DNA of 64,000 nucleotides, from NCBI GenBank assembly GCA_030154265.1, contig JASKKH010000004.1:1-64000 (forward strand), read 5' to 3'. Under the pieces are notes generated by a model. It was given only the letters and a program-made list of their open reading frames with translations, was not told the origin of the DNA and ran no database searches. Positions 15,839-31,061 of this stretch are shown here, in pieces. How positions within the stretch are numbered: position 1 is the stretch's first letter; the number at the start of each line of letters is the position of its first letter. This DNA comes from Clostridia bacterium (GTDB lineage: Bacteria; Bacillota; DSM-521; Neomoorellales; Neomoorellaceae). The position numbers and the translations under genes were made by a program.

Positions 15839-16795
15839 TTAGCAAACCCTGTCTCTCCAATAATTCAGTAGATCTGTAATTGTTTTTTTAAGGGAGATTT
15901 CCGGTTTCCAACCTGTCTGTTTGTTAAATTTTGAATAATCACCCAAGAGGATGGGAACATCAGAAGGACGCAATCTTGATTCATCTACTTCTACTGTGAT
16001 TTTTTGGTTAGATAAAGCTAGAATCATATCCAATAGCTCTTTAATTTTTATTGCTATACCAGAAGCAATATTATATACTTCACCTGGAACACCGTATTCA
16101 AGTGCCAACCAATACCCTCGAACCGTATCTCTAACATCAGTAAAATCTCTTTTAGCTTCTAAGTTACCTACTTTTATTACCGGTTTCCTTAAGCCTTTTT
16201 CTATTTCAGCAACCTGCTTGCAGAAATTGGAAGTGACAAACATTTCTCCTCGCCGTGGTCCCGTATGATTAAAGGCTCTTGTTCTAACTATATGAAGACC
16301 GTAAGAGGCTTGATACTGATATCCTAAAAGATCCTGTGCGACCTTACTTACTCCATAAGGACTTAAAGGGCGTAATGGATTTTTTTCTTTAATGGGTGTT
16401 TCCTCGGGGTAAACCATCCCATATTCCTCAGAAGAGCACGCAATTTGAATCTTTACTGGGTTATTACATGACCTAACAGCCTCAAAAATATTTAATTCAC
16501 TTAGAATATTATTTTGTAATGTCTCTTCTGGCGCTCCCCAGGAAGTAGGAACAAAACTCTGGGCTGCAAGATGGAAAATTCTGTCCGGTCTAACAGTTTC
16601 TATTACCTTTCTGACAGCAAAGGGGTCTAGTAAATTACATTCAACCAGATTGATCTTATCTAATAGGTGCTCAATATTGTCCAATTTACTCCTTACTCTA
16701 ACAGTTCCGAAAACTTCCACATCTTGCTGATTAAGAGCATACTCAGCAAGATGGCTGCCTGCAAATCCTGTAATTCCTGTAATCAATATTTTCAT
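15839..16795 (-). CDS. rmd: GDP-4-keto-6-deoxymannose reductase / GDP-mannose dehydratase family (RMD-like)
   Basis: 318 aa extended SDR. The Rossmann motif is ILITGITGFAGSHLAEYAL (residues 3-21) and the active-site region is CSSEEYGMVYPEETP with YGVSK (about 122-150). The length, SSEEYG and VGNLEAKRDFTDVRD resemble GDP-6-deoxy-D-lyxo-4-hexulose reductase, which makes GDP-D-rhamnose, more than the longer dehydratase GMD. No separate gmd is in the window, so the keto intermediate must come from elsewhere, or this enzyme acts as the dehydratase. A truncated copy lies at 26751-26990. Upstream lies a wrecked manC, so this copy has lost its original operon partner. Confidence 0.8.
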   Translation of the reverse strand: MKILITGITGFAGSHLAEYALNQQDVEVFGTVRVRSKLDNIEHLLDKINLVECNLLDPFAVRKVIETVRPDRIFHLAAQSFVPTSWGAPEETLQNNILSELNIFEAVRSCNNPVKIQIACSSEEYGMVYPEETPIKEKNPLRPLSPYGVSKVAQDLLGYQYQASYGLHIVRTRAFNHTGPRRGEMFVTSNFCKQVAEIEKGLRKPVIKVGNLEAKRDFTDVRDTVRGYWLALEYGVPGEVYNIASGIAIKIKELLDMILALSNQKITVEVDESRLRPSDVPILLGDYSKFNKQTGWKPEISLKKTITDLLNYWRDRVC

Positions 16796-16802
16796 TTTTT
16801 AT

Positions 16803-16976
16803 CTAACCTTCTTTCTTTTCTCCTTCGTATTGGTCTGTTAACCTGATAACGGCTTTGGGATGATTTGTAGGACATTTCAAATAATCTGATGCAATTTCAT
16901 CCATAATTCTATGGAGATCCAGGGTTCTTTCTCCTAAAACTTTCCATTACCCCATATCATCCCAAAAGAAATTCCC
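16803..16976 (-). pseudogene. Remnant of manC (mannose-1-phosphate guanylyltransferase C-terminus)
   Basis: Two pieces of a ManC reading frame survive directly upstream of rmd. The first reads GNFFWDDMG followed by a stop where the intact gene at 26987-28429 reads GNFSWDDLGDW. The second reads LDLHRIMDEIA to CPTNHPKAVIRLTDQYEGEK, matching the cupin end HRIMASEELVLFEVSTSH and VIRLNDRYGREKKEG of that gene. About 100 internal codons are missing, and there is a TAG at 16803. The piece keeps the same position relative to rmd as the intact manC has to the broken rmd in the other island. Confidence 0.82.
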
Positions 16977-17048
16977 TCAAATCAAATTTAAAGTGAAGCC
17001 ATTTATTATTCATCTTATTCATATAATTTATTTTGGTTAAAAAATCTT

Positions 17049-17420
17049 CTTTTGGTTTTTTATGATATTAGAGGAATGACCAGTAACGGAAGTCTTACCC
17101 CGGAAATAGCAGAACAGATTGGCAACCTCTCCACATGCTCCAAAAATTTTATCTTCTGGTTGTGAAGTAGTTGCAATCAATGCAAAGTCTGATCCTACTT
17201 TCCCTGGTCATTTACCCGACCCGATACTTCCTCAAAACCTAAAAGAATTACAGTCTACTGAATCAAAGAAAACGCAGACCTGGGTATCGCCTATGATAGA
17301 GATGGTGACAGAATCAGAATGGTTGACAATGAAGGAAAAATCGTCTGGGAAGATAAGTTGATTTTTAGGAAAGAAATACTTTCCAAAATCCCAAATATAA
17401 GAACAGCATTTGAAAGGTAA
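17049..17420 (+). pseudogene. Remnant of a phosphomannomutase (manB-type) gene
   Basis: Plus-strand fragments of a phosphohexomutase can be read in changing frames. The N-terminus is FYDIRGM followed by LTPEIAEQIG; the middle is GCEVVAINAKSDPTFPGHLP and PDPILPQNLKEL; then, after a frameshift, ENADLGIAYDRDGDRIRMVD and EGKIVWEDKLI. The last contains the metal loop, with Arg replacing the usual Gly (DGDGDR in the family). The catalytic Ser loop region is deleted. It is not functional. Intact ManB would supply mannose 1-phosphate to ManC, so this belongs to the same lost GDP-mannose module. The intact mutase at 62265-63680 could now cover the step. Confidence 0.8.
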
Positions 17421-24566: not shown

Positions 24567-25616
24567 TTATTCTCCTTGAAGCCAGATATAAAATTTTTCC
24601 TCCCATTCCCTGACAATTTTGTCATAGGTAAAATATCCTAAAGCTCTCTCTCTGGCAGATTTTGACATTCGGGCTATCTCTATCGGATTCTTCAGCAACT
24701 TAATTATCTCTTGTGCAAATTCTGCTATTGGCACACTGCCATTTTTCATTTTTACAACTCTACCAGTAACTCCATCTCTTATTGTAGTAGAAAGTGCTCC
24801 AATTTCAGAACAAATAGAAGGTGTTCCTGCCGCCTGGCATTCCATGGCAGAAATACAAAACAATTCTTTAAAAGTACAGGGATAAACATGAAGCTGACTT
24901 GTTTTCTGTTCATAAATAAGCCTTTCTCTTTCTATCCTTCCCAAAAAACTAACACCTGGGATTCGCATGAAGGCTTTTTTATATTTCTCATTCTGAGGTT
25001 TTCTTCCCCACAGGGTATAATCACTTGTAATAACAAGTCTGGCATCTGGAATTACTTTTTTCACTAGTGGAAAAATTTGAACCATATTGTCCAATCCTTT
25101 CCTGGGTACAGAGCAATAAATAAGCTTATTTTTTATTTTTGGTAAAACGGTACTATATTCTTTATCATTTATGCCAAGCCTGGTTTGATATATTTTATCC
25201 CGCGGTACTTCGGTATTCTTTAAGAGCTCTTGAGTATGAAAAGAACTTATAGTAATAACTTTTTTAACGAAAGGTAATAACTTGGTCCAATCTTTAACCA
25301 AATTGCTATTTTCTTCTATTGACCAGTATAATTTTAATTTAGCTGGTACTAAATCCAATCTGGGAGGCTGGCCCCGGACAACCACCATAACATCCCATTT
25401 TTCCCTATAATCAAATTTGCCTATATTTCTATATCCAACCCCATTAAAAATACCTTCACGTAAAGTCTTATTAAATACCGTAACTTCATGTCTTTTGGAA
25501 AGTTCCCTCGTTATCTGCACAATTGCAGCTTCTGATCCTGGTAACCCGCTTCCCTCCATGTCCGGATCATTCCAGTCCTTTTGTGTTGGAAATGAATAGT
25601 AGAAACATATTTTCAT
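24567..25616 (-). CDS. Glycosyltransferase family 1/4-like (GT-B fold)
   Basis: 349 aa. The N-terminus (KICFYYSFPTQKDW, then GSGLPGSEAAIVQITRELSK) is the acceptor-domain start of GT4-like enzymes. The C-terminal domain shows LIYCSVPRKGLDNMVQIFPL and the EX7E motif ELFCISAME (about 262-270), followed by QAAGTPSICSEIGAL. I start at ATG 25616, one base after the stop of the upstream transferase, rather than at a longer in-frame ATG (25634) inside that gene. It is the last gene of the manC operon; function is in surface-glycan assembly with unknown specificity. Confidence 0.82.
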   Translation of the reverse strand: MKICFYYSFPTQKDWNDPDMEGSGLPGSEAAIVQITRELSKRHEVTVFNKTLREGIFNGVGYRNIGKFDYREKWDVMVVVRGQPPRLDLVPAKLKLYWSIEENSNLVKDWTKLLPFVKKVITISSFHTQELLKNTEVPRDKIYQTRLGINDKEYSTVLPKIKNKLIYCSVPRKGLDNMVQIFPLVKKVIPDARLVITSDYTLWGRKPQNEKYKKAFMRIPGVSFLGRIERERLIYEQKTSQLHVYPCTFKELFCISAMECQAAGTPSICSEIGALSTTIRDGVTGRVVKMKNGSVPIAEFAQEIIKLLKNPIEIARMSKSARERALGYFTYDKIVREWEEKFYIWLQGE

Positions 25617-25617
25617 A

Positions 25618-26730
25618 TTAGCTATACCCCTCATTTAAAAGCCTGTTCATTATTCTTTCGGCCGTAACATCCCAGGTTAGATTTTTGATACTTTCCAGGG
25701 CATTATCAGCTTTTTTTAGTGCTTCCGCTTTATTCTCATAAACTCTTCGCATCAGTTTCCTGAGATGGGAAATATCTGGTTTAGCCCATCTAAATCCCAT
25801 ATAAAATTTATCAATCGGCAGCCCCAGTCTGGGAACAGGTTCCAATTCTTTAACTTTTATGAGAAAAGCATTTTTTTCACTCACAAAGTCCAAGTGGGCT
25901 GACCAATCAGTAGTAATAACTGGAACTCCAGATGCCATAGCTTCTAGTACCGGGAAATTCCACCCTTCGCCCCTTGTAGGAAGTACAAAACAATCGGCAC
26001 TTTTATAAAGATTCGCCATTTCAGAAGTATTTAAGATTTGTGATATCAAATTTATTTTAGGTGGATTTTTGACTCCCGTATTGTTCATAAAATGCTTTAT
26101 TTCTTGTTTTATTTTCTCACCTGAATCATAATTTCTCCTGACATGGGATTTAATAACTAACTTTACAGCATCATTACCTGTAAATTCTTTCAAATAAGCC
26201 TCTAGTAAAATATCATAACCCTTTCTGGGAATCCACTCACATACTGTTAAAAAAGTAAAATCTTTTCTATTCCCTTTGCCCTTGGCATCCCGGGGATTAA
26301 AAACAGTAGTATCAACACCCAGGGGTAAGACTGTTACTTTTTCCTTTTGAATGCCACTTTTTATAAAGGTATCACGATTAAAAGTTGAAGGAACCCAAAC
26401 TTCATCCATTTTGTTACATAAATCCACCCATTGTTCAGGTACTCCGTCAATCTCGAGCATCGTTAAACCAATAGATTTTTTATAACCTTCTTCGTAGAGA
26501 AATAATGGTGGAATACCAATGTTTAAAAGATATTCACATTCTCCTTTTCTAAGCATTAGCCCTTCTAAAATCTTTCTAGTATGCCCTGGTAGATTAAAAG
26601 GCGGTGTGAACCAAGCTATAGGTTGTAAAAAAATTTCTACTCCCTGTCGATGAAGGGCTAATGTTATCTCTCTGGTTACCGTTGTATATCCAGCGAGACC
26701 ATAAACTGGTCCTGCGATGTGCAACTTCAT
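25618..26730 (-). CDS. Glycosyltransferase family 4-like, paralogue of the 14614-15705 gene
   Basis: 370 aa GT-B transferase beginning KLHIAGPVYGLAGYTTVTRE. MDEVWVPSTFNRDTF, VTVLPLGVDTTVFNPRD, EWIPRKGYDILLEAYLKEF and the EX7E motif EGWNFPVLE (about 264-272) align with the transferase at 14614-15705, as does the C-terminal GFRWAKPD/GARWAIVD pair. Both genes follow an rmd locus, so they are a duplicated module. The start ATG lies 20 nt after the residual rmd stop; the spacing fits an original manC-rmd-GT operon. Confidence 0.83.
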   Translation of the reverse strand: MKLHIAGPVYGLAGYTTVTREITLALHRQGVEIFLQPIAWFTPPFNLPGHTRKILEGLMLRKGECEYLLNIGIPPLFLYEEGYKKSIGLTMLEIDGVPEQWVDLCNKMDEVWVPSTFNRDTFIKSGIQKEKVTVLPLGVDTTVFNPRDAKGKGNRKDFTFLTVCEWIPRKGYDILLEAYLKEFTGNDAVKLVIKSHVRRNYDSGEKIKQEIKHFMNNTGVKNPPKINLISQILNTSEMANLYKSADCFVLPTRGEGWNFPVLEAMASGVPVITTDWSAHLDFVSEKNAFLIKVKELEPVPRLGLPIDKFYMGFRWAKPDISHLRKLMRRVYENKAEALKKADNALESIKNLTWDVTAERIMNRLLNEGYS

Positions 26731-26750
26731 AAAAATCCCCTGTCAAAACC

Positions 26751-26990
26751 TTAATAATAGTCCCTTTTGGAAACTTTTTTTCTCCAATAATCCAACAGAT
26801 CTTTAATAGTCTTCTCAAGAGGTATCTCGGGTTCCATCCCGTCTGTTTATTAAATTTTAAATAATTTCCCACAAGAATAGGGACGCATTTTCCTCAACCT
26901 GCTTACAGAAATTGAAGGCAACTGTTAGAGGGCATATTCGGCCAGGTGGCTTCCTACAAATCCCGTTATTCCGGTAATTAAAATTTTCAT
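26751..26990 (-). pseudogene. Remnant of rmd, internally deleted copy
   Basis: The first 21 codons (MKILITGITGFVGSHLAEYA plus Leu) match the intact rmd at 15839-16795 and then meet a TAA. A short piece related to NFCKQV follows, then the C-terminus PILVGNYLKFNKQTGWNP and, after a frameshift, EIPLEKTIKDLLDYWRKK. More than 230 codons are missing. Its ATG overlaps the manC stop (ATGA), showing that the two genes were once translationally coupled here. Confidence 0.87.
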
Positions 26991-28429
26991 TCTTTAATCC
27001 ACCCACCTTCCTTCTTTTCCCTACCGTACCTGTCATTTAACCTAATAACATCATCCAAGTGAGAGGTAGATACCTCAAACAGGACGAGCTCTTCAGATGC
27101 CATAATCCTGTGAGAAACATTAGGTTTGACATGTATCACTTTACCTGGTTTAACAGGAATAACTTCCTCACCAAGTAGAATGAATCCCGTACCAGACTCA
27201 ATATAAAAAGTCTCTTCCTTTTCTTTGTGCAAATGGACACTCGTTGCCTCCCCCGGAGCTACAATAAGAATCTTAGCTGCATAATTTTGAGTTTGGGCCC
27301 AAATAATTTCTCTTCCCCAAGGCTTTTCGATCATAGTTCCTGAGTTTTTATATTCATCTCTCCTTCTTTTTTTTAGATGAGTCGTAATATTTAAAAATTC
27401 TTCAGAATTTAATACTTTCTTAATCTGGTTAAGCATATCCTCTGCACAAACCAACAAACCATCATCAGAACCGGCAATCACCAAATTATCCACACCAATA
27501 ACCATTACAGGTCCCCTGTCCCAATCCACTATACACCCAGAAGAATTTACACTTAATACATTATCCGTTCTGCAGAGGCCGTTTCTTTTCAAGGCTCTCC
27601 AATCCCCTAAATCATCCCAGGAGAAATTACCTTCTACAACAATAATATTACGGCATTTTTCAACTATCCCATAATCAATAGATATAGCAGGAATAGATGC
27701 AAAAAGTTCTTTCATGTAGGTGTTTAAATCTGTGCCACAGCCCTTTTCATGCTGAAAGTTTTTGATTTTTTCTAAGGCTGTGTATAATTCTGGGAGATAT
27801 TTTTTAACCAGTGACCGGAGAGTACTTAGCTTCCAGATAAACATTCCAGAATTCCAAAGACAGTTACCAGATTTAAGTAGGGACTCCGCCTTACTTTTTT
27901 GGGGTTTTTCAATAAATCTTTTTACAAAATAAGCACATGTTTTCTTGTCGGCCTTTTTACCCAAAATGATATAACCATATTCTGTCTCTGGCCTGGTAGG
28001 AGTAATACCAACTGTTACAACCTCTACGTCGTTTGTAAGCTGTACTGCTTGCTTCAGTGTATTAACCCAGTTTTCTTCATTATCGATAAGATGATCAGAC
28101 GGAACAACTACCATAACCGGGTCAGTTTCATATCTTTCAGCAATAACCATAGAAGCATAACCAATTGCCACAGCAGTATCTTTGGTAACCGGTTCAATGA
28201 TAAGATTTTTTTCATCCATTTCAGGTAATTGCATTTTAACCTGTTCTTTATATTTTTCAGGAATAACAATATAAATATCATCCGTTTGTACTAGTTTCCA
28301 CAATCTTTCAACTGTTTTCTGTAAAAGGCTTTTTGAATCACCCAATGTTAAGAATTGTTTGGGTAAATCTGGGGAACTTTTCGGCCAGAACCTGTTTCCC
28401 CTTCCCCCTGCCAGTACCAGGGCAATCAT
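26987..28429 (-). CDS. manC: Mannose-1-phosphate guanylyltransferase with C-terminal cupin (ManC/GMP-PMI type)
   Basis: 480 aa. Residues 1-340 form the guanylyltransferase: LAGGRGNRFWPKSSPDLPKQ (nucleotide-binding loop), VVPSDHLID with the metal-binding Asp, and FVKRFIEKP. Residues about 365-470 form the cupin: MIEKPWGREI, VHLHKEKEETFYI and HVKPNVSHRIM, the type II phosphomannose isomerase fold. Product is GDP-mannose, used for mannose or 6-deoxymannose units. Start ATG with AAGGAGG upstream. A second manC at 16803-16976 is a ruin, and the start of a third copy survives near 29429. Confidence 0.92.
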   Translation of the reverse strand: MIALVLAGGRGNRFWPKSSPDLPKQFLTLGDSKSLLQKTVERLWKLVQTDDIYIVIPEKYKEQVKMQLPEMDEKNLIIEPVTKDTAVAIGYASMVIAERYETDPVMVVVPSDHLIDNEENWVNTLKQAVQLTNDVEVVTVGITPTRPETEYGYIILGKKADKKTCAYFVKRFIEKPQKSKAESLLKSGNCLWNSGMFIWKLSTLRSLVKKYLPELYTALEKIKNFQHEKGCGTDLNTYMKELFASIPAISIDYGIVEKCRNIIVVEGNFSWDDLGDWRALKRNGLCRTDNVLSVNSSGCIVDWDRGPVMVIGVDNLVIAGSDDGLLVCAEDMLNQIKKVLNSEEFLNITTHLKKRRRDEYKNSGTMIEKPWGREIIWAQTQNYAAKILIVAPGEATSVHLHKEKEETFYIESGTGFILLGEEVIPVKPGKVIHVKPNVSHRIMASEELVLFEVSTSHLDDVIRLNDRYGREKKEGGWIKE

Positions 28430-28574
28430 TCTATTTTCCTCCTTGAATTAAATGGTTTTTATTATAATTCATTCTATTCAAATTTTATTGGTATGTTAAA
28501 ATTTTCTATTGGATCTTCATGGTTGGTTTATAAGTAAACTTCAGATAACTTTATAACTTATAGTGAAAGAACAA

Positions 28575-28599
28575 AAAGACACCTTGGTACGGTGCCTTT
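28575..28599 (-). terminator. Hairpin 1 of three related terminators, with vestige of a third Cys-rich gene
   Basis: AAAGACACC/GGTGCCTTT (one G-U pair) around a TTGGTAC loop, nearly identical to the hairpins at 28660-28684 and 29533-29558. The following 24 nt (to about 28627) resemble the last codons of the two Cys-rich genes in altered form, so a third copy of that gene has probably been deleted, leaving only its 3' end and terminator. Confidence 0.6.
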
Positions 28600-28654
28600 G
28601 AAAATAGGTATTTTGGAAGTAGTGTATCATTTTAAAAATGGTCAAAGTGTTCAT

Positions 28655-28684
28655 TAAAAAAAGACACCCTGGTACGGTGTCTTT
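28655..28684 (-). terminator. Terminator after the first Cys-rich gene (hairpin 2)
   Basis: Perfect 9-bp stem AAAGACACC/GGTGTCTTT with a 7-nt loop, followed on the minus strand by a run of at least seven T. It lies 14 nt past the 28698-29327 gene and separates it from manC. Confidence 0.85.
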
Positions 28685-28697
28685 GCTAATGGATATT

Positions 28698-29327
28698 TTA
28701 GAAGCATTGTTCGGGTGGTGTTGGAGGACATACTCCAGGTAAAGGAAGACAATGTGCTGGTACACAGAAACCGTAGCTGGGAACAAGTAATTGTACTTTT
28801 AGTATACACTTAATTACAAGACATACTTGAATGCCGCACATTACTCTGATTGAGTCTTCCTCTACGTTAGTAACAACACATATACAACTTATTATAGTAC
28901 TCTCAGTACAGTCGGGTGATACTTCTTCAGGACAGCATAGAGTCACAGTTTTGGTAAAATTAAATGTTCTTTCAATAGTCTCTTCTTCATTATTAGGGTT
29001 TATTAAGGTTACAGGAACTGTAATAAGTAAGGTTATTGTAAAAAATCCAGTTTCATCTACTTCTGTACGGCTAATTTCTGTACATGTTATTTCTTCACCG
29101 GGAGTTAATTTACACCCTAATATATCCCCTTCATTAAAAGTTCCTGTTTCAAATTCCATATAGGCTCCAGTTGTTATTATAGTTTCCCTGCTAATGTCAT
29201 CAACTTGAAAACAGCTGTCATAAACCTTATCTACTACTATACATTCAATACGGTCAAAAGGCGGACATCCTTCCGGTGGACACTTTCCCGGCTGTATTTG
29301 TTGACGAGTCATTTTTTCTTCTACCAT
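28698..29327 (-). CDS. Cysteine-rich protein of unknown function (possible spore-surface protein), copy 1
   Basis: 209 aa with 18 cysteines, no signal peptide. N-terminal CPPEGCPPFDRIECIVV is followed by DKVYDSCFQ; a Thr/Glu-rich variable middle; CC...C...CIC near 130-150; and the tail VQLLVPSYGFCVPA to PPTPPEQCF. All 18 cysteines align with those of the neighbour at 29571-30203, and the ends are almost identical while the middles diverge. The make-up (cysteine pairs, Pro-rich ends, no export signal) resembles spore coat or exosporium proteins that cross-link on the forespore, but that is inference. ATG with AAGGAGGG upstream; its own terminator, so monocistronic. Confidence 0.75.
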   Translation of the reverse strand: MVEEKMTRQQIQPGKCPPEGCPPFDRIECIVVDKVYDSCFQVDDISRETIITTGAYMEFETGTFNEGDILGCKLTPGEEITCTEISRTEVDETGFFTITLLITVPVTLINPNNEEETIERTFNFTKTVTLCCPEEVSPDCTESTIISCICVVTNVEEDSIRVMCGIQVCLVIKCILKVQLLVPSYGFCVPAHCLPLPGVCPPTPPEQCF

Positions 29328-29404
29328 CCTTAGCCCTCCTTATTTACAGATTGCTGAAATATCTCGATTCAATGATAAGATTTTTTCATTTATTTTTTAG
29401 GTAA

Positions 29405-29429
29405 TTACATTAAGTATCAAGGCAATCAT
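29405..29429 (-). pseudogene. Vestigial manC start codon region
   Basis: On the minus strand ATG ATT GCC TTG ATA CTT reads MIALIL, matching the intact manC start MIALVL, and nearby upstream bases match the manC leader (ATTCTATTCAA block). It lies between the two Cys-rich genes, as expected if a unit consisting of Cys-rich gene, terminator and manC start had been tandemly duplicated. Confidence 0.5.
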
Positions 29430-29525
29430 TCTTTTAATTTATTCTATTCAACCGTTTATGATTAGGTTATTTGGATATTATGGTTAATTTGTAACTATAA
29501 TCCATTTAATTTCATAATATATATT

Positions 29526-29558
29526 AAAAAAAAAAGACACCGCGGTACCGGTGTCTTT
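29526..29558 (-). terminator. Terminator after the second Cys-rich gene (hairpin 3)
   Basis: Perfect 9-bp stem AAAGACACC/GGTGTCTTT with an 8-nt loop and a run of about seven T on the minus strand. It lies 12 nt past the stop of 29571-30203. Confidence 0.88.
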
Positions 29559-29570
29559 GAAAATAGTATT

Positions 29571-30203
29571 TTAGAAACATTGTTCGGGTGGTGTCGGAGG
29601 ACACACTCCAGGTATAGTAACACAAGGTGCTGGTACACAGAAGCCATAGCTGGGAACAAGTAATTGTACTTTTAGTATACACTTAATTACAAGACATACT
29701 TGAATGTCGCACTGGAATGTTACTCTAGTTGGATTATCATGATCATCAACCTCAATAACTGCACAATTGCATGCTACCAATGTACTTTCAGAACAATCTG
29801 GATCTACACCATCCGGGCAGCAAAGTGTTACAGTTTTTATAATGGTCTGTTTCCTTTCTACAACTTCAGTTTCCTCATTTGGGTTTACAAACCTTAAAAA
29901 GACTTCTACTAACAGAGTTAGGGTTACAAATCCGGTTTCATCTACAGGTTCACGTTTAATCACTTTACAATTTATAGGTTCATCAGGATCTAATCCGCAT
30001 AGTATTTCATCACCTACATTTAAAGGTCCTGTTGTGAATTCATCTGTTGTAATTTCTTTTGAAAAATCTTCAATTTGGAAGCAGCTATCATAAACCTTAT
30101 CCACCACTATACATTCAATACGGTCAAAAGGCGGACATCCTTCCGGTGGACACTTTCCCGGCATTATTTGCTGTTGTTGGCGGGTCATTTTTTCTTCTGC
30201 CAT
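29571..30203 (-). CDS. Cysteine-rich protein of unknown function (possible spore-surface protein), copy 2
   Basis: 210 aa, paralogue of 28698-29327 with all 18 cysteines kept. The N-terminus (GKCPPEGCPPFDRIECIVV) and the C-terminal block from VCLVIKCILKVQLLVPSYGF on are essentially identical, while residues about 40-140 differ strongly. That suggests either selection on the ends or gene conversion of the ends. It begins MAEEKMTRQQQQ with an AAGGAGGG site 7 nt upstream, and ends in its own terminator. No transmembrane or signal segment. Function unknown; likely a structural, disulfide-linked surface protein. Confidence 0.75.
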   Translation of the reverse strand: MAEEKMTRQQQQIMPGKCPPEGCPPFDRIECIVVDKVYDSCFQIEDFSKEITTDEFTTGPLNVGDEILCGLDPDEPINCKVIKREPVDETGFVTLTLLVEVFLRFVNPNEETEVVERKQTIIKTVTLCCPDGVDPDCSESTLVACNCAVIEVDDHDNPTRVTFQCDIQVCLVIKCILKVQLLVPSYGFCVPAPCVTIPGVCPPTPPEQCF

Positions 30204-30330
30204 CTACTAGCCCTCCTTATTTAAGTAGTCATATATTTAAACCTACTATATATTATTTTAAAGGTGTTAAAGGGTTACATTTTTATAAAATTGGTAAAAT
30301 TACCTATTAAAAAAATTTTTATATATTTCA

Positions 30331-30359: not shown

Positions 30360-30704
30360 TCAAGCACGAACAAAATTTTGATACCCCAAACTCAAAATTT
30401 CAAAAATGATTTGTTCAATAGATATTTTGTAAGGATTATAACTAATAATCAGTTTTTGGGGGTTCTGATACGGCTTAATATTTACTATTCCGGGCATTTG
30501 AAGCAGCCTTTTGGAAATAATTTTATGATCATTTTCTGAATCCATATCAAGAATTGTCAGGTTTAAAGTTACAGTACTAGTAATTTCTTGTGAATATGAC
30601 TTGTCATTAGAAATTTTCTGCGGTACATTCCCTTTACAGGGTTCTTTGTGTGCTTTATTTTGTTGAGGGATCATTCCCTGAATATTTCTTTTATACCAGC
30701 TCAT
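30360..30704 (-). CDS. HMA-like domain protein lacking the metal-binding CxxC
   Basis: 114 aa. The last about 70 residues have the beta-alpha-beta-beta-alpha-beta pattern of heavy-metal-associated domains (VTLNLTILDMDSENDHKIIS, MPGIVNIKPY, KLIISYNPYKISIEQIIFEI), but no CxxC in the first loop, so copper binding in the usual way is unlikely. The N-terminal 45 residues are polar. I prefer ATG 30704 because GGGGGAG lies 6 nt upstream. The frame stays open to a GTG at 30812 without a ribosome binding site, which would add a basic, partly hydrophobic 36-residue leader. Function unknown. Confidence 0.6.
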   Translation of the reverse strand: MSWYKRNIQGMIPQQNKAHKEPCKGNVPQKISNDKSYSQEITSTVTLNLTILDMDSENDHKIISKRLLQMPGIVNIKPYQNPQKLIISYNPYKISIEQIIFEILSLGYQNFVRA

Positions 30705-31061
30705 TAATTCTCCCCCAATCCATAGTAGTAAACAACTTTTTAGAAACTTTTTTCTTCTCAACCTCTCCCCTTGAAATTCCAATCCTTTAGTTAGCTGTTT
30801 TACTTTTTTCACGGAAAGAACTCTTTATTTCCTACATCTGCATACGTATTTAGGTGCTTCATTCTCACTTCCCCTAAAAAAATGTGATTGATTTTGGCAA
30901 AAAAATACATACCTATCTAAAACTGTAATCTGGCCAGTAAACTTCTATCATTATGAGACAAGCTCCCTATTTGTGGCATCAGACATTTTTACCTTGTTTG
31001 TCTTTTTCTTAACCACAAAATATAATCAATATTGTAGAAACATTTCTAAGAAGGTTAAAAA

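Follow-up and report, generated by a model that had tools for sequence, protein, structure and literature searches.

The window is a 64,000-nt stretch on contig C10 of a Clostridia bacterium genome (1.99 Mb, 70 contigs). On its reverse strand lie two tandem genes for cysteine-rich proteins, named here coat gene copy 1 and copy 2 after the relationship discussed below, together with three terminator hairpins, a short 3′-end stub, a remnant of a manC-like gene between the copies and an intact manC-like gene (Table 1). All 18 cysteines align between the two proteins. The 3′ ends of the genes form a 146-nt repeat (93% identical) and their 5′ regions a 127-nt repeat (85% identical), while the middles have diverged. 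A previous inspection of the letters alone (hereafter the sequence-only reading) had described the pair in these terms, and the description holds. A pseudogene reading of copy 1 or copy 2 is ruled out, both frames being intact with 18 cysteines. The manC-like gene matches TIGR01479 at E=1.7e-92, yet under the cut-off of that model, and the Pfam NTP_transferase and ManC beta-helix models above theirs. Rfam returned no match in the window at gathering thresholds. At window positions 30360–30812, a small protein is weakly like metal-binding domains (MerTP, E=5.1e-5, far under cut-off); homologues of it lie close to the coat gene in 15 of the 24 loci compared.

Table 1. Features of the coat-gene pair and of the sugar-nucleotide genes in the window
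Feature	Position	Strand	Remarks
Upstream box AATAnTATA[TC], possible −10 element of a sporulation promoter	30248–30257	−	Ahead of copy 1 only
RBS region, outer edge of duplicated unit	30208–30223	−	16 nt identical to 29331–29346
Coat gene copy 1	29571–30203	−	Intact frame; 18 Cys in 210 aa; middle evolves fast
Terminator hairpin of copy 1	29533–29558	−	Terminator scan and shuffled folding
Duplicated manC leader upstream of copy 2	29436–29530	−	Leader alone: 3/1000 shuffles as good
Leader box TGAATAGAATAAAT, candidate promoter element of copy 2	29437–29450	−	Common to manC leaders
manC remnant	29347–29429	−	MIALIL start, ~170-nt deletion, manC codons ~65–80
Coat gene copy 2	28698–29327	−	Intact frame; 18 Cys in 209 aa; the copy nearer to outside relatives
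Terminator hairpin of copy 2	28660–28684	−	Terminator scan and shuffled folding
Coat-gene 3′-end stub	28600–28625	−	Within 53-nt repeat, 83% identical
Third terminator hairpin	28575–28599	−	Terminator scan and shuffled folding
Intact manC-like gene (mannose-1-phosphate guanylyltransferase / mannose-6-phosphate isomerase)	26987–28429	−	TIGR01479, Pfam
GDP-mannose dehydratase-like relict	26763–26990	−	Internally deleted: both ends, almost no middle
Phosphomannomutase pseudogene	17061–17411	+	Adjoins manC scraps
manC scraps	17064–16996, 16972–16925		Beside phosphomannomutase pseudogene
Intact paralogue of GDP-mannose dehydratase-like gene	15839–16795	−	89% identical to that of L034

The proteins had been assigned to an unknown family, and this part of the sequence-only reading has to be given up. 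Among the 24 aligned proteins, 20 match the NCBIfam model NF052457 (BMQ_0737 family morphogenetic spore coat protein) at E ≤ 0.01. Copy 2 matches it at E=4.2e-8 (33.6–34.4 bits) over profile positions 2–193 of 199, and copy 1 at E=0.00125 (19.2 bits) over positions 2–185 in the genome search; in hmmscan, copy 1 gave no match at E ≤ 0.01. Homology extends over nearly the whole profile. Since both scores (~34 and 19.2 bits) fail the curated membership cut-off of 71 bits, the two proteins are, on profile evidence, distant relatives of the family and not members. In a sample of the phylum, 37 of 199 genomes match the model, none above cut-off. Pfam gave nothing useful on the coat proteins, and no CotY/CotZ/ExsY family model in Pfam or NCBIfam was matched.

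A coat homologue occurs in 21 of the 22 genomes searched in the order, this one included, and the genome that lacks it is 58% complete. The tandem pair is found only here among the 22, and more than one coat match also occurs in G013 and in G026 (two contigs each). In another genome, a coat homologue lies in two frames with a stop (G002:C31:6344-6959, L043), through real decay or sequencing error. A second class of coat gene is seen among polysaccharide-type genes, beside a DUF3880/Glyco_trans_1_2 glycosyltransferase (L050:4282-4926, L035:3063-3725). The two endospore assembly or regulator genes looked for, SpoIVA (779.7 bits) and sigma-K (355.6 bits), are both encoded in the genome and score above cut-off. 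Comparisons were based on an alignment (A1) of 24 rows, of which the first 19 entered the tree, and on 18 proteins for the silent-site test. The alignment leaves out L044 and L046 (the latter with a stop in its given frame), the broken gene of G002, the second match of G026 and the weak or partial matches of G018, G020, G028, G030 and G031.

The AF2 models of both copies have a mean pLDDT of 82. That of copy 1 is all beta, and that of copy 2 has seven strands in the same order; the Cys-rich tails are low-confidence predictions in both. Compared with known folds, the copy 1 model gave a best Foldseek E of 0.01 (none ≤ 0.001) and a best Z of 3.0. The PDB sequence search with the coat proteins returned a single match (E 0.26). 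None of these is a useful match to a solved structure.

The three hairpins are alike, as the sequence-only reading had it. They account for three of the six terminator-like sites in 3 kb (shuffle mean 1.6), and for each of them none of 200 shuffles folds equally well. The possibility, raised in the same reading, that they belong to a genome-wide dispersed repeat unrelated to the genes is ruled out by pattern searches and by the self-match of the region. The 25-nt pattern of hairpins 1 and 2, allowing up to three mismatches, occurs in the genome at those two sites only; the pattern of hairpin 3, allowing up to two, finds itself and one 2-mismatch site on another contig; and the whole coat-pair region matches itself and manC only.

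The distorted 3′ end noticed ahead of the third hairpin is real. Stub and hairpin together form a 53-nt stretch, 83% identical to the end of the copy 2 gene with its hairpin. The third hairpin may be a leftover 3′ end with its terminator, from a lost copy or from a short local duplication. A vanished third gene, as had been proposed, asks more of this remnant than it holds, since only ~26 nt (~4 codons) plus the hairpin are left and a comparable stub lies behind the single coat gene of L034, a Clostridiales metagenome-assembled genome (MAG; JAICDB010000008.1). Because of that stub, a short local duplication of gene end and terminator is given an even chance against the remains of a full third gene. 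That the stub aligns about as well with copy 2 (score 32) as with copy 1 (31) favours the local event as well, whereas the order of gene end, hairpin and manC leader would also be expected of a third unit that had suffered a deletion. The spacer of the stub shows no likeness to the manC leaders (966/1000 and 592/1000 shuffles as good).

Between the copies, the reverse strand carries the start of manC, with its ATG at 29429, and a duplicated manC leader. Positions 29429–29576 are 71% identical to 28459–28618, and the leader with the MIALIL start (~8 codons) scores 59.5, narrowly above the best of 1000 shuffles (57.5). The manC start and part of its leader had been recognized from the letters alone, correctly; the remnant is longer than was then described, since it also includes manC codons ~65–80 after an internal deletion. 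This interior piece (28235–28190 vs 29411–29365) is matched by none of 1000 and none of 2000 shuffles. Extension of the fragment beyond 28190 to ~28164 is not significant alone (634/2000 shuffles as good). At the other edge, the two coat genes share their ribosome-binding site (RBS) region, and upstream of it copy 1 and copy 2 have no significant likeness (1611/2000 shuffles as good). Collectively, the repeats and the shuffle-tested manC fragment bear out the earlier proposal that a unit comprising the coat gene, its terminator and the start of manC was duplicated in tandem and that deletion followed. They support a duplicated unit that would have begun at the RBS of the coat gene and run into manC.

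Such an edge at the RBS would explain why copy 2 lacks the upstream box of copy 1 and stands behind a duplicated manC leader. The AATAnTATA[TC] box, which we take to resemble a sigma-K or sigma-E −10 site, is found 54 nt ahead of copy 1, and 54–60 nt ahead of 14 of 19 relatives' genes, the gene starts of several loci (including L038 and L041) being approximate in this and in the 3′-repeat comparison. None is found within 100 nt upstream of copy 2. Instead, manC, the fragment before copy 2, the distal manC relict and L034 have a leader consensus in common, TGAATAnnATRAATnA. Four genome sites fit this pattern (three of them the manC leaders of this window) against three for a reversed control, so it is not rare by itself; its weight lies in the shared position.

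The protein ends are conserved across the whole family, so only silent sites can tell of copying between the copies. Codons with the same amino acid were scored for identical synonymous choice in 153 pairs from 18 proteins. Between copy 1 and copy 2, silent codon identity is 64/75 in the ends and 29/55 in the middle (p=6.7e-5, with the ends/middle boundary picked after the repeat map had been seen). This contrast is the largest of the 153 pairs, for which the mean is +0.054 (sd 0.088); the other seven of the eight largest contrasts have nominal p values of 0.0054–0.035. In a boundary-free test, identical silent codons form two runs of 20 (permutation p 0.0004; p 0.024 for the single longest run alone), and three control pairs give p 0.62–0.66 on the two-run measure. 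The middles of the two copies are as diverged from each other as from L034, the nearest outside relative (silent identity 42/76 for copy 2 and 22/49 for copy 1). The silent sites common to both ends thus point to partial gene conversion, which would have homogenised the ends of the copies. In both AF2 models, the ends that carry the mark take in the first and the last of the long strands, together with the Cys-rich tails. A literature search for reports joining spore coat protein, gene conversion and tandem duplication found none, a statement about the search and not about what is in print.

Without conversion, the pair would be a young duplication of this lineage only, in which relaxed or positive selection speeds up the evolution of the copy 1 middle, and selection on the protein keeps the ends alike. 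The middle branch of copy 1 is indeed long (1.63, vs 0.46 for copy 2), the protein ends are conserved family-wide, and the silent-site contrast has the same, weaker, tendency in the other pairs. This account is nevertheless improbable, given that the middle is as diverged at silent sites as it is from L034 and the ends are not, with a contrast that no other pair reaches. An import of the middle of copy 1 by recombination from a divergent homologue, for example of the L035/L010 class, is slightly less probable still: copy 1, L035 and L010 have a common 5-column gap near column 62, but L035 and L010 pair together and not with copy 1 (support 95/89 for the whole protein, 89/85 for the middle).

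The age of the duplication is a separate matter from the conversion of its ends. In the tree, copy 1, copy 2 and L034 form a group (support 93/91), in which the two copies as one clade are neither shown nor rejected (AU p 0.32–0.46). L034 has, in order, one coat gene, a 61-nt repeat (97% identical) of the coat 3′ end with part of the hairpin (L034:6596-6768), a phosphomannomutase gene and manC. It is the sole locus with a 3′-end repeat behind a single coat gene among 22 testable relatives' loci (23 loci, less L039, whose slice ran off its contig), and the sole one of 24 compared in which manC and the coat gene are no more than 2 kb apart. The duplication may therefore predate the split from L034, which would have lost one copy and kept a 3′ stub with terminator, conversion holding the ends of the surviving pair alike. 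Consistent with this, the middle of copy 2 is 64% identical to that of L034 and 47% to that of copy 1, and its silent identity to copy 1 is no higher than that to L034. Against it, the grouping of copy 2 with L034 has uneven support (79/76 for the whole protein, 89/78 for the middle, 80/11 for the ends), the copies as a clade are not rejected, and the stub spacers of the two genomes are not significantly alike (780/2000 and 212/2000 shuffles as good, in two scorings). Its chances are put at a little under one half, and it is a variant of the history, compatible with tandem duplication followed by partial conversion.

A similar pattern appears at a larger scale. The single sugar-nucleotide segment of L034 maps to two places in the window, 15839–17411 and 24567–28429. 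In the segment beside the coat genes, manC has stayed intact but only a relict of the dehydratase gene is left; at 17.4–15.8 kb, it is the dehydratase gene that is intact, alongside manC scraps and the phosphomannomutase pseudogene. The two segments have lost complementary genes, which fits the theme of duplication followed by deletion.

On this evidence, with a probability of about 0.6, the pair encodes two subunits of a Cys-rich outer spore-coat layer, distantly related to BMQ_0737, and arose by tandem duplication with partial conversion. The Bacillus megaterium protein BMQ_0737 is placed with the outermost proteins of the spore (PMC4656864). Self-assembly into disulfide-linked arrays is known for Cys-rich coat proteins from more than one family (PMC7333573, PMC4950064, PMC8546674), and in several spore formers Cys-rich coat genes lie near collagen-like and glycosyltransferase genes (PMC7333573). 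By analogy, the disulfide-linked surface layer suggested in the sequence-only reading is a fair inference. A close parallel is the pair CotY and ExsY of Bacillus cereus (orthologues of CotY/CotZ of Bacillus subtilis), likewise two Cys-rich paralogues of one layer that self-assemble through disulfide links and play different parts in cap and encasement (PMC8546674). The likeness would be one of function, as the coat pair has no CotY/CotZ model match. CsxA of Clostridium sporogenes is also Cys-rich and clostridial, and clustered with a glycosyltransferase gene (PMC7333573); here the likeness is so far one of description.

A plausible course of events can be outlined from the repeats. A tandem duplication that broke immediately upstream of the coat RBS and within manC would have produced the order coat 1, terminator, manC fragment, coat 2, terminator, manC. 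The manC fragment would afterwards have lost its interior and its ribosome-binding site, and both coat frames would have been kept, with partial conversion of their ends and divergence of the copy 1 middle. In the protein, the conserved ends (first and last long strands with Cys-rich tails) may form common assembly and disulfide interfaces, and the middle a variable face. The ancestral sporulation promoter would drive copy 1, and the captured manC leader copy 2; the mother cell would produce both proteins, which would co-polymerise on the spore, like CotY and ExsY.

It is tempting, though doubtful at present, to go further and propose a two-subunit lattice in which conversion holds the assembly ends alike and the middle diversifies, the promoter swap bringing copy 2 into expression with the sugar genes of manC. 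If true, a single event would have given the coat a variable face and linked its synthesis to its glycosylation. The promoter swap, if real, would be a testable case of a new coat composition arising in one step. More generally, a gene present in 21 of 22 genomes of one order is now tied to a known spore-coat family, and the locus offers a probable case of a coat gene that was duplicated, acquired another upstream region and underwent partial homogenisation. Each of these processes is ordinary; their record here is unusually readable.
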